This document shows positions 19,702 to 52,392 of a stretch of 64,000 bases of DNA, in pieces. Source of the DNA: Methylovirgula sp. 4M-Z18 (GTDB lineage: Bacteria; Pseudomonadota; Alphaproteobacteria; Rhizobiales; Beijerinckiaceae); the NCBI RefSeq assembly GCF_037890675.1, contig NZ_CP149574.1, forward strand, positions 2,046,001-2,110,000, read 5' to 3'. The notes under the pieces were generated by a model. It searched no databases, had not been told where the DNA came from, and saw only the letters and a list, made by a program, of their open reading frames with translations. The position numbers and the translations under genes were made by a program. The stretch's first letter is position 1; each line of letters begins with the position of its first letter.

Positions 19702-20106
19702 ATGATCGGCCGGCTCAATCATGTGGCGATCGCGGTCAAGGATCTGGACGCCGCGGCCCGCAGCTATCGCGAGACGCTGGGCGCCAAGGTCTCGGCGCCG
19801 CAGGCCGAACCGGCGCATGGCGTGACTGTAGTGTTCATCGAGCTGCCGAACACCAAGATCGAATTGCTGGAGCCCCTGGGCGAGAATTCGCCGATCGCCA
19901 AGTTCCTGGAAAAGAACCCGGATGGCGGCATGCACCACGTCTGCTATGAGGTCCAAGACATTCTGGCCGCCCGCGACCAGTTGAAGGCCGCTGGCGCGCG
20001 GGTGCTGGGGGATGGAAATCCGAAAACCGGCGCCCACGGCAAGCCAGTCTTGTTCCTCCATCCGAAGGATTTCAACGGAACCTTGGTGGAACTCGAGCAA
20101 GTCTAG
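19702..20106 (+). CDS. mce: Methylmalonyl-CoA epimerase
   Basis: A 134-residue VOC-superfamily enzyme that interconverts (R)- and (S)-methylmalonyl-CoA in propionyl-CoA assimilation. It begins with the usual LNHVAIAVKDLDAA, has GGMHHVCYEV with the metal-binding histidine and ends with FNGTLVELEQ with a metal-binding glutamate. In a propane-oxidising organism this pathway would be directly useful for C3 carbon, but the link to the distant monooxygenase operon is inference. Confidence 0.93.
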   Translation: MIGRLNHVAIAVKDLDAAARSYRETLGAKVSAPQAEPAHGVTVVFIELPNTKIELLEPLGENSPIAKFLEKNPDGGMHHVCYEVQDILAARDQLKAAGARVLGDGNPKTGAHGKPVLFLHPKDFNGTLVELEQV

Positions 20107-43141: not shown

Positions 43142-43170
43142 TTGAGAAAAGAACACAAATAGAACATATT
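43142..43170 (+). promoter_or_regulatory. LexA-controlled promoter (SOS box between -35 and -10)
   Basis: TTGAGA (43142-43147) and CATATT (43165-43170) are 17 bp apart. Between them lies GAAC-ACAAATA-GAAC (43151-43165), an exact match to the alphaproteobacterial LexA box GAAC-N7-GAAC (the complement of GTTC-N7-GTTC). Bound LexA would cover the promoter spacer. The first gene downstream is a 32-residue micro-protein, then dnaE. Confidence 0.72.
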
Positions 43171-43198
43171 GAGATCGTACCAAATACAGGAGGACGTG

Positions 43199-43297
43199 AT
43201 GCTGTTTTCACTGCTGGAAGATCTCACGGAAGTCTGCGCTTTGGGCGCTTTCGTCACGATGGTGGGCTGCGCGGCCAAGGTCCTCGGGGCGATGTGA
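43199..43297 (+). CDS. 32-residue hydrophobic micro-protein under SOS control
   Basis: Starts MLFSLLEDLTEVCALG and ends AAKVLGAM. Residues about 14-30 are hydrophobic enough for one membrane helix or membrane surface contact, preceded by a short acidic stretch. A textbook AGGAGGA (43188-43194) lies 5-6 nt before the ATG, and the LexA-type promoter lies about 30 bp further upstream. Size, hydrophobicity and SOS control recall Caulobacter SidA, a 29-residue SOS-induced division inhibitor, but I see no claim of sequence homology. The stop lies 26-92 bp before the possible dnaE starts, so both may share a transcript. Confidence 0.6.
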   Translation: MLFSLLEDLTEVCALGAFVTMVGCAAKVLGAM

Positions 43298-43322: not shown

Positions 43323-46300
43323 GTGAACTCGCTCTCGACGCGCGCCGCGCCGGGGGCCACAAAGGAGCCCTATAAAGGAACGCACGCTTTGAGTCGGATT
43401 TTGCAAGACGTCGGTTTCGTGCATTTGCACGTTCATTCCTCCTTCTCGCTGCGCGAGGGAGCGTTGACCATCGCCAAGCTGGCGAAATTCGCCAAAGCCG
43501 ATGCGATGCCGGCCTTGGCGATTACCGACACCAACAATCTGTTCGGCGGCCTGGAATTTTCCGAGAAGATCTCGAAGGAAGGCATTCAGCCGATCGTGGG
43601 GATTCAGCTCACGCTGGAATTCGGCGATGCGGAGGCGCTCGGCTCACGCCTCCTGCGCGGCGATGCAGGGCGCGGATCGGTGGTGCTGCTGGCGGCGACC
43701 GCTGCCGGCTATGCCAATCTCATGCGCATCGGGTCGCGCGCCTGGCTCGACCCGTCCGCCGGCGACACGCCGCATGTGCGGCTCGACCGGCTCGACGACA
43801 TTTCGGGCTTGATCGCCTTGAGCGGCGGGCCGGGCGGGCCGCTGGATCGGGCGCTTTCCGCCGAGCGGCCGGAAGTGGCGCTCGCCCGGCTGCAAAAGCT
43901 GCAGGAGATTTTCGGCGACCGACTTTACGTCGAATTGCAGCGGCACGGGCTTGAGAACGAGAAGCTGAACGAAGGCCAGCTCCTCGATTTTGCCTATGGC
44001 AACGGCCTGCCGCTGGTGGCGACCAACGAGAGCTTCTTCGCCGCGGCGTCCGACTACGAAGCGCATGACGCGCTGATCTGCATTGCCGAGGGCACGGTAG
44101 TGGGCGATCCAAACCGGCGGCAATTGTCGCCGGAGCATCGGCTCAAGAGCCGCGCCGAGATGGTCCAGCTTTTCGCCGACCTCCCGGAAGCGACCGCCAA
44201 TACGATTGAAATCGCCATGCGCTGCGCCTACCGGCCGCGCACCGGCAAGCCCATTCTGCCGCGCTTCACCAGCGAGGACGGAACGCCGGTCGATGAAGTC
44301 GGCGAGTTGTGCGCCCAAGCGGAAAAGGGTCTCAAGAAGCGCCTTGCCGCGTCGCCGCCCGCGCCCGGTTTTTCGGTCGAGGATTACGAAAAGCGTCTGG
44401 CCTTCGAACTCGACGTCATCATACGCATGAAGTTTCCGGGTTATTTCCTTATCGTCTCGGACTTCATCAAATGGGCGAAGGCGCATGACATCCCGGTCGG
44501 TCCGGGCCGCGGTTCGGGCGCCGGCTCGCTCGTCGCCTATGCGCTGACGATCACCGATCTCGATCCGATGCGCTTCGGCTTGCTGTTCGAGCGTTTCTTG
44601 AATCCCGAACGTATCTCGATGCCGGACTTCGACATCGATTTTTGCCAATATCGGCGCGACGAGGTGATCGCCTATGTCCGCGAGCGCTATGGTCGCGATC
44701 GCGTCGCCCAGATCATCACCTTCGGCTCGTTCCTGGCGCGCGGCGTCATGCGCAACGTCGGCCGCGTGCTCGAGATGCCGCTGGGCCAAGTCGACCGACT
44801 CGCCAAGCTCGTGCCGCAGAATCCGGCGAATCCGATCAGTCTGGCCGATGCGATCAAGTCGGAAGTCAAATTGCGCGAGGCGGCGGACGAGGAGCCGCGT
44901 GTCGCCAAGATGCTGGCGATTGCCGGCACGCTCGAAGGGCTTTACTCCAACGCCTCGACCCATGCCGCGGGCATTGTGATTGGCGACCGGCCGCTCGATG
45001 AGATCGTGCCGCTGTATCAGGATCCGAAATCGGACATGCCGGCGACCCAGTTCAATATGAAATGGGTGGAGCCGGCAGGCCTGGTGAAGTTCGACTTCCT
45101 CGGCCTCAAGACGCTCACGACTCTCGCAACCACCGTGCAACTCTTGAAGAAGCGGGGCATCGATATCGATCTGACGGCGCTGCCGCTCGACGACCAGAAA
45201 ACCTTCGACATGTTGGGGCGCGGCGAAACGATCGGTGTGTTCCAGGTGGAATCGGCGGGCATGCGCAAGGCCCTTGTCGAAATGCGGGCCGACCGGCTGG
45301 AAGACCTCATCGCGCTCGTCGCGCTCTACCGGCCAGGCCCGATGGCTAATATTCCGGTCTATTGCGCGGTTAAGCACGGCGATCAGGCGCCGGATTACAT
45401 TCACCCGAAAATCGAACCGGTGCTGAAGGAGACGTTCGGCGTCATCATCTATCAGGAACAGGTGATGCAGATCGCGCAGATCCTGTCCGGCTATTCGCTC
45501 GGCGAAGCGGACATGCTGCGCCGCGCGATGGGTAAGAAGATCAAGGCGGAAATGGACGCCCAGCGCGCCCGTTTCGTCGACGGCGCGATGAAGGGTGGCT
45601 TGGAAAAGGCCAAGGCGGACGAGATTTTCGACCTCCTGGCGAAATTCGCCGACTATGGCTTCAACAAAAGCCACGCGGCCGCCTATGCGCTGATTGCCTA
45701 TCAAACCGCATGGTTCAAGGCCAATTACCCGGTCGAGTTCCTGGCCGCGTCGATGACGCTCGATAAATCCAACACCGACAAATTGTCGGAATTCCGCAAC
45801 GAGGCGCGCCGGCTCGGCATCAAGGTCGAGCCGCCGTCCGTCAACAAATCGGGCGTGGATTTCGAGGTGCATCAAGGCGCCGACGGCGCCTTGAACATTC
45901 GCTATGCGCTGTCAGCTGTCAAAGGGGCCGGCGAAGGGCAGGTGGGGTCGCTGGTGAGTGCGCGTGGCGCGCAGCCGTTCGACTCGCTGGGCGATTTCGC
46001 CCGCCGCATCAACCCGCGCGAGGTGAACAAGAAGGTTCTGGAGAGCCTTGCGGCGGCGGGCGCCTTCGACGACCTGGAATCGGACCGTGCTCGGGCCTTC
46101 GCGGCGGTCGAACCGATTCTGTCCTTGGCCAATCTCACCCAGGAGGAAGCGCAAGCCGGCCAGTCGGCGCTGTTCGGGGAGGTGGAGGCGGAGGCGCCGT
46201 TGCTTGTGCCGCATGTCAGCCCATGGCCAGCGGCGGACAAATTGGCGCGCGAATTGGACGCGATCGGTTTCTTCCTCTCGGGCCATCCACTGGACGATTA

Positions 46301-46862
46301 TGCCTCGGTCCTGACGCGCCTGCGCGTGACGCGTTGGGCGAATTTTGCCCGGGACGTCAAGGCGCGCGGGGCAGGGGTAGCGCAACTCGCCGCCACCGTG
46401 CTCGACCGGCAGGAGCGGCGCACCAAATCAGGCTCGAAAATGGGAATCGTCAATCTGTCCGATCAGACCGGACAATATGAGGCGATCCTGTTTCAGGAAG
46501 GGCTCAACCAATATCGCGACCTTCTTGAAAAAGGCCGGGCGCTTTTGATCACGGTCGAGGCGCGGGTCGAAGGCGAGGACGTGCGGGCGCGCATCACGGC
46601 CGCCGAACCGCTCGACCAGGCGGCAAGCCGCGTCCAAAAAGGCTTGCGCATCTTCGTCCGCGACAGCGGCCCGATCGCTTCGATCCATGAGCGTTTGAAA
46701 GCCCGCGAAGGCCGCGCCGAAGGGGAGGTGTCGCTGGTTCTGATGCTGGAGAAGGAAAAGAACGAGGTCGAAGTGAAGCTGCCGGGCAAATATGTCGTCT
46801 CGCCGCAGGTCGCCGGAGCGCTCAAGGCCGTGCCGGGAATTGTCGCGGTCGAGCACCTATAG
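43323..46862 (+). CDS. dnaE: DNA polymerase III subunit alpha
   Basis: A replicative C-family polymerase of up to 1179 residues. The PHP domain starts HLHVHSSFSLREGA. The catalytic aspartates are in PDFDIDFCQYRR at about residues 434-440. GSGAGSLVAYAL and FNKSHAAAYALIAYQTAWFK are normal DnaE1 segments, and an OB-fold and tail follow. The length and motifs fit DnaE1, not the error-prone DnaE2/ImuC. The start is uncertain: GTG at 43323, or TTG at 43389, which has AAAGGAA at a good distance and gives about 1157 residues. The only promoter-like element just upstream is the LexA-type one. Confidence 0.95.
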   Translation: MNSLSTRAAPGATKEPYKGTHALSRILQDVGFVHLHVHSSFSLREGALTIAKLAKFAKADAMPALAITDTNNLFGGLEFSEKISKEGIQPIVGIQLTLEFGDAEALGSRLLRGDAGRGSVVLLAATAAGYANLMRIGSRAWLDPSAGDTPHVRLDRLDDISGLIALSGGPGGPLDRALSAERPEVALARLQKLQEIFGDRLYVELQRHGLENEKLNEGQLLDFAYGNGLPLVATNESFFAAASDYEAHDALICIAEGTVVGDPNRRQLSPEHRLKSRAEMVQLFADLPEATANTIEIAMRCAYRPRTGKPILPRFTSEDGTPVDEVGELCAQAEKGLKKRLAASPPAPGFSVEDYEKRLAFELDVIIRMKFPGYFLIVSDFIKWAKAHDIPVGPGRGSGAGSLVAYALTITDLDPMRFGLLFERFLNPERISMPDFDIDFCQYRRDEVIAYVRERYGRDRVAQIITFGSFLARGVMRNVGRVLEMPLGQVDRLAKLVPQNPANPISLADAIKSEVKLREAADEEPRVAKMLAIAGTLEGLYSNASTHAAGIVIGDRPLDEIVPLYQDPKSDMPATQFNMKWVEPAGLVKFDFLGLKTLTTLATTVQLLKKRGIDIDLTALPLDDQKTFDMLGRGETIGVFQVESAGMRKALVEMRADRLEDLIALVALYRPGPMANIPVYCAVKHGDQAPDYIHPKIEPVLKETFGVIIYQEQVMQIAQILSGYSLGEADMLRRAMGKKIKAEMDAQRARFVDGAMKGGLEKAKADEIFDLLAKFADYGFNKSHAAAYALIAYQTAWFKANYPVEFLAASMTLDKSNTDKLSEFRNEARRLGIKVEPPSVNKSGVDFEVHQGADGALNIRYALSAVKGAGEGQVGSLVSARGAQPFDSLGDFARRINPREVNKKVLESLAAAGAFDDLESDRARAFAAVEPILSLANLTQEEAQAGQSALFGEVEAEAPLLVPHVSPWPAADKLARELDAIGFFLSGHPLDDYASVLTRLRVTRWANFARDVKARGAGVAQLAATVLDRQERRTKSGSKMGIVNLSDQTGQYEAILFQEGLNQYRDLLEKGRALLITVEARVEGEDVRARITAAEPLDQAASRVQKGLRIFVRDSGPIASIHERLKAREGRAEGEVSLVLMLEKEKNEVEVKLPGKYVVSPQVAGALKAVPGIVAVEHL

Positions 46863-50939: not shown

Positions 50940-51015
50940 GCCCGAGTAGCTCAGTTGGTAGAGCAAGCGACTGAAAATCGCTGTGTCGGTGGTTCGATTC
51001 CGCCCTCGGGCACCA
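50940..51015 (+). tRNA. tRNA-Phe (anticodon GAA)
   Basis: Acceptor GCCCGAG/CTCGGGC, D-arm GCTC/GAGC, anticodon stem AGCGA/TCGCT with loop CTGAAAA (anticodon GAA), T-arm with GGTTCGATTCC, discriminator A and encoded CCA at 51013-51015. An integrase gene follows 170 bp downstream, so its 3' end is a likely integration site. Confidence 0.97.
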
Positions 51016-51182
51016 TTTGCCCGTCCCATGGCGTCCATACCCCCTAGAAAAGTTCATGAATTTCAGGCATTTTGCTTGAAATGAGCCAGCTTGACGTCCG
51101 CTCACGTCCACCGGCATCCAGTCGATTTGGGGGTAGTGCAAGGGGGGCTCAGAAAAGACCCCTTGCTGCGAGACCCCCGTCG

Positions 51183-52392
51183 ATGGCCCTCGGCGACATT
51201 AATGTCAGAAATGCGAAGCCGGGCGAACGGCTGATCAAAATGTATGACGGCGAGGGACTGTTGCTGTTGATCAAGCCGACCGGCGCCAAGCTATGGCGCT
51301 TGAAGTACCGCTTCCATGGGCAGGAGAAAGCGCTAGCCCTCGGCAAATACCCCCAAGGTCGGGTTAAAAGAGGCACGCGTGAGACGCGACGAAGCCAGGG
51401 CCTTGTTAGGGGCCGGCAAAGATCCGGGTCGGTTGCGCCGACTGGAAAAACTGACAGGGGCAACACCAAACGGCGCCACGTTCAAAGCCGTCGCCGACGA
51501 TTATCAGTACAAGCTCGCCCGCGAGGGTAGGGCGCCGACAACCCTCGACAAGCTCGCTTGGCTGCTATCCTTCGTTCCGGCCGATGTTGGCAATCAGCCC
51601 ATCCGCGAGCTGACAGCCGCCGATATTCTTGCGGTCCTTAAAAAGGTCGAGGCCCGCGGCAATCTCGAAACCGCCCGCCGTTTAAGATCTACGATAGGCG
51701 CGGTTTTCCGCTATGGAGTCGCCACGGCACGCGCGGAAAACGATCCCACTGCGGCGCTCAAGGGCGCCTTGATCGCACCCAAGGTCAAGAATCGCGCTGC
51801 CATCACCTATCCTGTCGAACTCGGAAGATTCCTTCGCTCGGTCGAAACTTATAACGGGCAACCCGAAGTAATCTCAGCGCTGAAATTATTACCGCTGGTC
51901 TTCTCGCGGCCGGGCGAGCCCCGCATGGCGGAATGGTCCGAGTTTGATTTTGAACGGGCGATCTGGACGGTTCCTGCCGCCCGGACCAAAATGCGGCACG
52001 AGCATCAGGTGCCGCTTTCGCGGCAAGCCACCGCGATATTGAACGGACTTAAGCCCCTAACCGGTCATGGACGACTGGTCTTTCCCAGTCTTCGGTCGAA
52101 AGAGCGGCCGATCAGCGACAACACGATGAACGCTTCGATGCGCCGCATGGGGTATTCAAAGGATGAAGTGACCGCGCACGGCTTCCGCGCCACCTTTTCC
52201 ACCATGGCCAATGAAAGCCGTAGATTCTCTGTCGACGCGATCGAGCGCGCTCTGGCTCACGTCGACGACAATCAGGTGCGGCGGGCCTATAATCGCGCTG
52301 AATTTTGGACCGAGCGGGTCGAAATGGCGCAGTGGTGGGCCGATCATTTGGATTCGCTTAAAGCGGGGAGCACAACGCCGGGCAAATCGTAA
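51183..52392 (+). pseudogene. P4-type tyrosine integrase, frameshifted
   Basis: The N-terminal DUF4102-like part (ALGDINVRNAKPGERLIK, YDGEGLLLLIKPTGAKLWR) is in one frame to about 51350. The rest continues in another frame from LKEARVRRDEARALL to the end at 52392. The join falls at a run of five C (51350-51354), so a single base gain or loss would explain it. Restored, the product would be about 403 residues, normal for the family. Catalytic residues are present: Arg in RPGEPRMAEW, HEHQVPLS, HGFRATF and the His/Tyr in LAHVDDNQVRRAYNR. It could be a true inactivation or a sequencing error. Confidence 0.85.

Follow-up and report, generated by a model that had tools for sequence, protein, structure and literature searches.

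What does the SOS control element directly in front of the replicative polymerase gene dnaE1 of Methylovirgula sp. 4M-Z18 regulate, a small membrane peptide, the polymerase itself, or nothing at all? The window, i.e., the whole stretch of DNA analyzed, comprises 64,000 nucleotides (NZ_CP149574.1, positions 2,046,001 to 2,110,000 of the forward strand), and the unit in question lies at 43142 to 43297 on the plus strand. An earlier note had described here an exact LexA box within a promoter of 17-bp spacing, a perfect AGGAGGA, and a 32-codon frame ending in a hydrophobic stretch, and direct reading confirmed each of these elements. The promoter-like element TTGAGA-17-CATATT (43142 to 43170; -35 at 43142 to 43147 and -10 at 43165 to 43170) matches 9 of 12 consensus bases, and the promoter scan returned one promoter-like site between 42900 and 43500, against 0.3 expected. 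The spacer is filled by the LexA box GAACACAAATAGAAC (43151 to 43165), an exact GAAC-N7-GAAC, which is followed on the same strand by the Shine-Dalgarno sequence AGGAGGA (43188 to 43194) and by the micro-ORF (43199 to 43297). The latter starts at ATG 43199, its stop ends at 43297, and its 32 codons encode the peptide MLFSLLEDLTEVCALGAFVTMVGCAAKVLGAM, with one hydrophobic segment at residues 12 to 30, for which Pfam and NCBIfam scans gave no match. Moreover, the lexA gene of the same genome carries a box of the same type, GAACATAAAAAGAAC, about 120 bp before its open frame. What is known in detail about the SOS division checkpoint of Alphaproteobacteria comes from the Caulobacter peptide SidA, and one trait of SidA, a LexA box in the promoter, was also found for the window unit, as judged from sequence.

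The box alone proves nothing, since exact GAAC-N7-GAAC occurs in the window at chance level (2 found versus 1.84 expected), and this count is what speaks for a random small frame that happens to follow a chance box. The other exact copy (20078 to 20092) has a GC-richer spacer, lies inside an ordinary coding frame (19702 to 20106), and is most likely due to chance. We therefore turned to comparison within a family sample of 149 genomes of the window's family, in 144 of which dnaE1 was found and its upstream region read (at least 900 bases in 138; six were shorter, owing to contig ends or to the cut made). An exact forward box was present in 83 of these 144 regions and an exact reverse box in 11, whereas 20 base-shuffled sets of the same 144 regions gave a mean of 1.55 and a maximum of 3.

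The peptide follows the same pattern. Used alone as the starting query against 60 related genomes (E up to 1), it matched in 9, the window's own included, and in seven of the eight relatives the match immediately preceded dnaE1 and had an exact GAAC-N7-GAAC ahead of it. The weakest match (L009) fell within another gene and had its own box by chance; it was rejected as a homologue. The window peptide and the seven dnaE1-adjacent relatives with an exact box made up alignment A1 (8 rows), the profile of which matched in 101 of the 149 family genomes at E up to 0.5 and, in 79 of the 144, at most 1.5 kb before dnaE1, one of these on the opposite strand (G122). An iterated model, seeded from A1, trained on matches from the same 144 regions, and applied to all small frames with a homologue threshold of E < 0.01, identified, in 89 of 144 genomes, a homologue within ~1 kb ahead of dnaE1; the 89 include all 79 dnaE1-adjacent genomes of the starting model, with 10 added. 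An exact box precedes the start by 15 to 115 bp in 79 of the 89, and among the ten homologues lacking it, two are cut by the contig end and the rest carry degenerate GAAC repeats. The box-to-start distance has a median of 48 bp, and a second group of distances falls at 27 to 30 bp. In one genus, three genomes (G001, G067, and G130) have an exact box followed by a hydrophobic frame too diverged for the iterated model to pick up. By the profile and upstream-region searches, 38 of the 144 family genomes have no such unit, and in the nearest named relative, a Rhodoblastus metagenome-assembled genome (MAG), no frame was recognized before dnaE1.

The substitution pattern of the frame is that of a translated gene. 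Across 72 same-genus, equal-length pairs from 19 genera, taken with no identity filter, differences at codon positions 1, 2, and 3 numbered 512, 278, and 998, respectively, so that the third position is the most variable. The median dN/dS was 0.15 in the 66 of 72 pairs with a usable dS (the three highest values being 0.98, 1.17, and 1.44), the pairs sharing ancestry and hence not being independent. As judged from these substitutions, the frame is under purifying selection. Chance as an explanation is refuted by the comparison, through the forward boxes, the homologous peptides, and this dN/dS, and retains next to no probability. Sequence comparison thus confirms the micro-ORF as a genuine, selected gene with a LexA box and a hydrophobic segment. 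The earlier note had tied its proposal to the conservation of box and frame before dnaE and to synonymous change within the frame, and both are what we found.

The gene downstream, dnaE1 (43389 to 46862, plus strand), is assigned to the replicative DNA polymerase III alpha subunit by NCBIfam model NF004226 (1,434.8 bits), and its product falls below the cutoff of the error-prone model NF004225. Among named genomes, the window DnaE1 is closest to that of the Rhodoblastus MAG (72% identity), with Methylobacterium, Methylorubrum, and Bosea at 63%; GTDB places these genera in the Beijerinckiaceae. The mechanical ORF start is GTG 43323, but the true start is probably TTG 43389, 22 codons downstream, with AAAGGA ahead of it (43374 to 43379) and relatives starting at the corresponding place. 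The end of the micro-ORF is then separated from the likely TTG by 91 bp on the same strand, and a site scan found no terminator-like site between the two, so that read-through from the micro-ORF promoter into dnaE1 is possible. This arrangement fits the proposal that the box is kept for the damage induction of dnaE1, the micro-ORF being a leader or by-product of the dnaE1 transcript. Two genomes of one genus (G096, locus L274; G148, locus L315) argue in the same direction, as they carry an exact box about 185 bp before dnaE1 and no recognizable peptide, and dnaE1 may itself be an SOS gene in both.

Copies of the peptide that have left the locus tell otherwise. In 14 family genomes, no copy lies at dnaE1 and the A1 profile matches elsewhere (E up to 0.0025). 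Thirteen of these 14 places, from several genera, were read (L090 to L094, L097 to L101, L103, L029, and L030; G114 was left out), and an exact box stands 27 to 78 bp before the likely start in 8 of the 13, the other 5 having degenerate repeats only, four of them in one genus. An exact forward box before dnaE1 was found in none of the 14 genomes, the region in G147 amounting to 316 bases of contig only. Moreover, in G122 the whole unit of box and peptide lies on the other strand relative to dnaE1, and it is the amino acid sequence of the peptide that selection appears to preserve. Since box and peptide move together, the conserved target of the box is more likely the peptide than dnaE1, and for the same reason the polymerase ranks last as the main SOS target. 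We consider it very improbable that the micro-ORF is a mere accompaniment of dnaE1 induction. Damage inducibility of dnaE1 is possible, and it is seemingly not what selection retains. Of the interpretation given in the earlier note, the real, selected, LexA-boxed micro-ORF and the comparison with SidA therefore hold, whereas the idea that the polymerase gene is partly damage inducible draws weak support from the two box-only genomes and from the lack of a terminator-like site, and is weakened by the moving box and by the strand of the unit in G122.

If the peptide is the target, what is it? The comparison with Caulobacteraceae is most informative here. A frame of 29 to 31 amino acids (aa) lies before dnaE1 in all 10 genomes of Caulobacter, Phenylobacterium, and Brevundimonas with dnaE1 found, preceded by an exact box 36 to 64 bp before the start in 8 of the 10. 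The NCBIfam scan took in five of these frames, and three exceeded the 35-bit cutoff of the curated SidA model NF033228: those of Caulobacter BIN43 (74.0 bits), a Phenylobacterium (65.6 bits), and Caulobacter Tobar (60.7 bits), the best match having an E value of 6.4e-21. The frame of Brevundimonas variabilis reached 31.8 bits, under the cutoff, and that of Brevundimonas Root1279 gave no NF033228 match. In Caulobacter and Phenylobacterium, dnaE1 is therefore immediately preceded by the gene for SidA (29 aa), and the micro-ORF of the window occupies the slot that SidA holds there. Thus, the window gene is most likely the positional counterpart of SidA, and the suggestion that it may be an undescribed counterpart of that peptide proves essentially right. 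Neither SidA counterparts outside Caulobacter nor the place of SidA before dnaE appeared in the titles or abstract openings of the literature searched. The arrangement was seen in Caulobacter species other than C. crescentus. For C. crescentus itself, sidA is given as CCNA_02004 (PMC10769358) and dnaE as CC1926 (PMC1839093), two numbering schemes that only suggest that the genes are neighbors. A Caulobacter vibrioides MAG yielded no dnaE1 at E up to 1e-200 and no copy of the peptide.

Sequence similarity to SidA is more distant. The window peptide has no match to NF033228, and none of the 149 family genomes has one above the cutoff, 72 of the 149 matching only weakly (E up to 1); among 7 control genomes, Caulobacter vibrioides included, 1 was over the cutoff. 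The model of the window family found the Root1279 copy (E of 9.2e-6), itself without an NF033228 match, and, at E up to 0.5, missed the remaining nine in the Caulobacteraceae set of 10. For these reasons, we speak of a SidA-type peptide and do not assign it to the curated SidA equivalog. Profile-profile comparison with hhalign nevertheless aligned the family and the Caulobacteraceae peptides over most of their length, with a probability of 82 to 83% and a score of 22.0, to be read with the convergence of which short hydrophobic peptides are capable, and versus a maximum of 15.5 in 200 column-shuffled control sets. A combined model built from five Caulobacteraceae and three other-family peptides was set aside, since any match of such a model to the SidA group would be circular.

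The two peptides resemble each other in more than position. SidA of Caulobacter crescentus (CCNA_02004; NF033228) and the window peptide share the locus before dnaE1 (as seen in Caulobacter and Phenylobacterium) and the GAAC repeats upstream; they are of similar size (29 versus 32 aa), each with one C-terminal hydrophobic segment, and their Kyte-Doolittle values over 19 residues are 1.92 and 1.87, respectively. They differ in the N-terminal half, which is acidic in the window peptide (EDLTEV) where SidA has ARESL, and in the core, SFVWM in SidA versus AFVTM in the window peptide.

These differences leave room for a membrane microprotein that is under LexA control but does not inhibit division, either because it acts on another SOS membrane target or because the role of SidA is specific to Caulobacter. 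The distance from SidA, with an acidic EDxxE against ARES and no match to the SidA model, would fit such a protein, as would the failure of the family model on nine of the 10 Caulobacteraceae peptides and the occurrence, in other families, of peptides that occupy this place and diverge even further. However, locus, control, size, and hydrophobic pattern are as in SidA, the profile match exceeds that of the shuffled controls, and nothing in the peptide sequence suggests another function. A role outside division thus appears unlikely to us, and we favor with good confidence a divergent SidA-type, LexA-controlled division inhibitor, a predicted single-span inner membrane peptide that would be the counterpart of SidA at the same locus. 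The observations behind this reading are the sequence elements, their conservation, the selection on the coding frame, the joint movement of box and peptide, the shared locus, and the profile similarity with the SidA group.

We propose the following course of events for such an inhibitor. In the undamaged cell, LexA would sit on the box and cover the -35/-10 region. Upon damage, RecA on single-stranded DNA would trigger LexA cleavage, the promoter would open, and the peptide would be made. It would then insert into the inner membrane and hold the late divisome complex FtsW/FtsI/FtsN inactive, with FtsW as the presumed target, and cells would elongate with division on hold until the damage is repaired. 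The window genome has a gene of the FtsW family, which matches its model below the cutoff. SidA is reported to bind FtsW and FtsN and to block division when overproduced (PMC4211646), deletion of lexA alone is described as yielding filaments in a sidA-dependent manner (PMC12700426), and a low-confidence model places SidA on TM7 of FtsW (PMC13396833).

Other known inhibitors offer looser parallels. The damage-induced inhibitors YneA, SosA, ChiZ, and DivS belong to other phyla and are larger proteins than the window peptide. As presented in PMC13396833, these Gram-positive proteins are work-alikes that inhibit division from the membrane, and YneA binds FtsW. DidA of Caulobacter crescentus is likewise small, spans the membrane once, and inhibits the late divisome complex on which SidA acts (PMC4211646), but it is set apart by its description there as a 71-aa, SOS-independent protein that is not controlled by LexA.

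How far does this type of unit extend beyond the family? When the 8-row profile was run class-wide, nothing convincing turned up outside the window's family: of the 20 among 289 genomes with a match at E up to 0.1, two are family members, and the other 18 have E values of at least 0.0088 and lie mostly inside longer frames. The peptides diverge too fast for a profile search, and regions upstream of dnaE1 were therefore read instead. Within a named-genome sample (30 genomes reached via PleD, dnaE1 found in 28), no peptide was found in 11 of the 28, namely, Rhodoblastus, Methylobacterium W2, two Hyphomicrobium, Azospirillum, Emcibacter, Hyphomonas, Henriciella, Rubritepida, Chelativorans, and Tianweitania. 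A peptide recognized by eye or by model is also present in Parvibaculaceae, Marinicaulis, Bosea, Methylorubrum, Methylobacterium oryzihabitans, and Devosia, with Pleomorphomonas doubtful. A class-wide sample of 70 dnaE1 regions from 54 families (the 30 best-scoring loci and 40 chosen to add families) gave an exact forward box in 11 regions (6 of the 54 families), with a short hydrophobic frame after each, and a reverse box in 8 of the 70.

As a separate observation, in other alphaproteobacterial families a LexA box upstream of dnaE1 is followed by hydrophobic micro-ORFs of very different sequence, which often have a Trp in their hydrophobic stretch (L064, L065, L081, L062, L063, L071, L077, L339, L352, L373, L073, and L215). 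These divergent micro-ORFs are beyond the reach of the window family's model.

The unit is widespread in related bacteria, where standard gene models overlook it, and it is ordinary in kind and useful in its extent. It provides a way to find checkpoint peptides where sequence search fails, by looking between a GAAC-N7-GAAC box and dnaE1, and it opens the checkpoint to testing in relatives of Methylobacterium, Rhodoblastus, and Bosea, a group in which the literature searched, as far as it was accessible, names no SOS division inhibitor. It also raises the question of why a division brake stays beside the replicative polymerase gene. A tentative hypothesis, which we would not yet back over its alternatives, could be an ancient, fast-evolving family of SOS membrane microproteins, encoded ancestrally between a LexA box and dnaE1 across much of the Alphaproteobacteria, of which SidA would be the Caulobacter branch. 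If so, a single promoter opened by damage could both brake division and, by read-through, raise transcription of the replicative polymerase gene, while each peptide would be refitted to its own FtsW complex.

Two minor observations were made along the way. Genome G000 has no strong MipZ, its best match to PF09140 having an E value of 3.6e-11, which would be unusual for an alphaproteobacterium if confirmed. In the window, a tRNA-Phe gene (50940 to 51015) is followed by a frame (51379 to 52392) that looks, by eye, like a tyrosine integrase, and the segment from 50940 to 52392 possibly marks an element integrated at tRNA-Phe.
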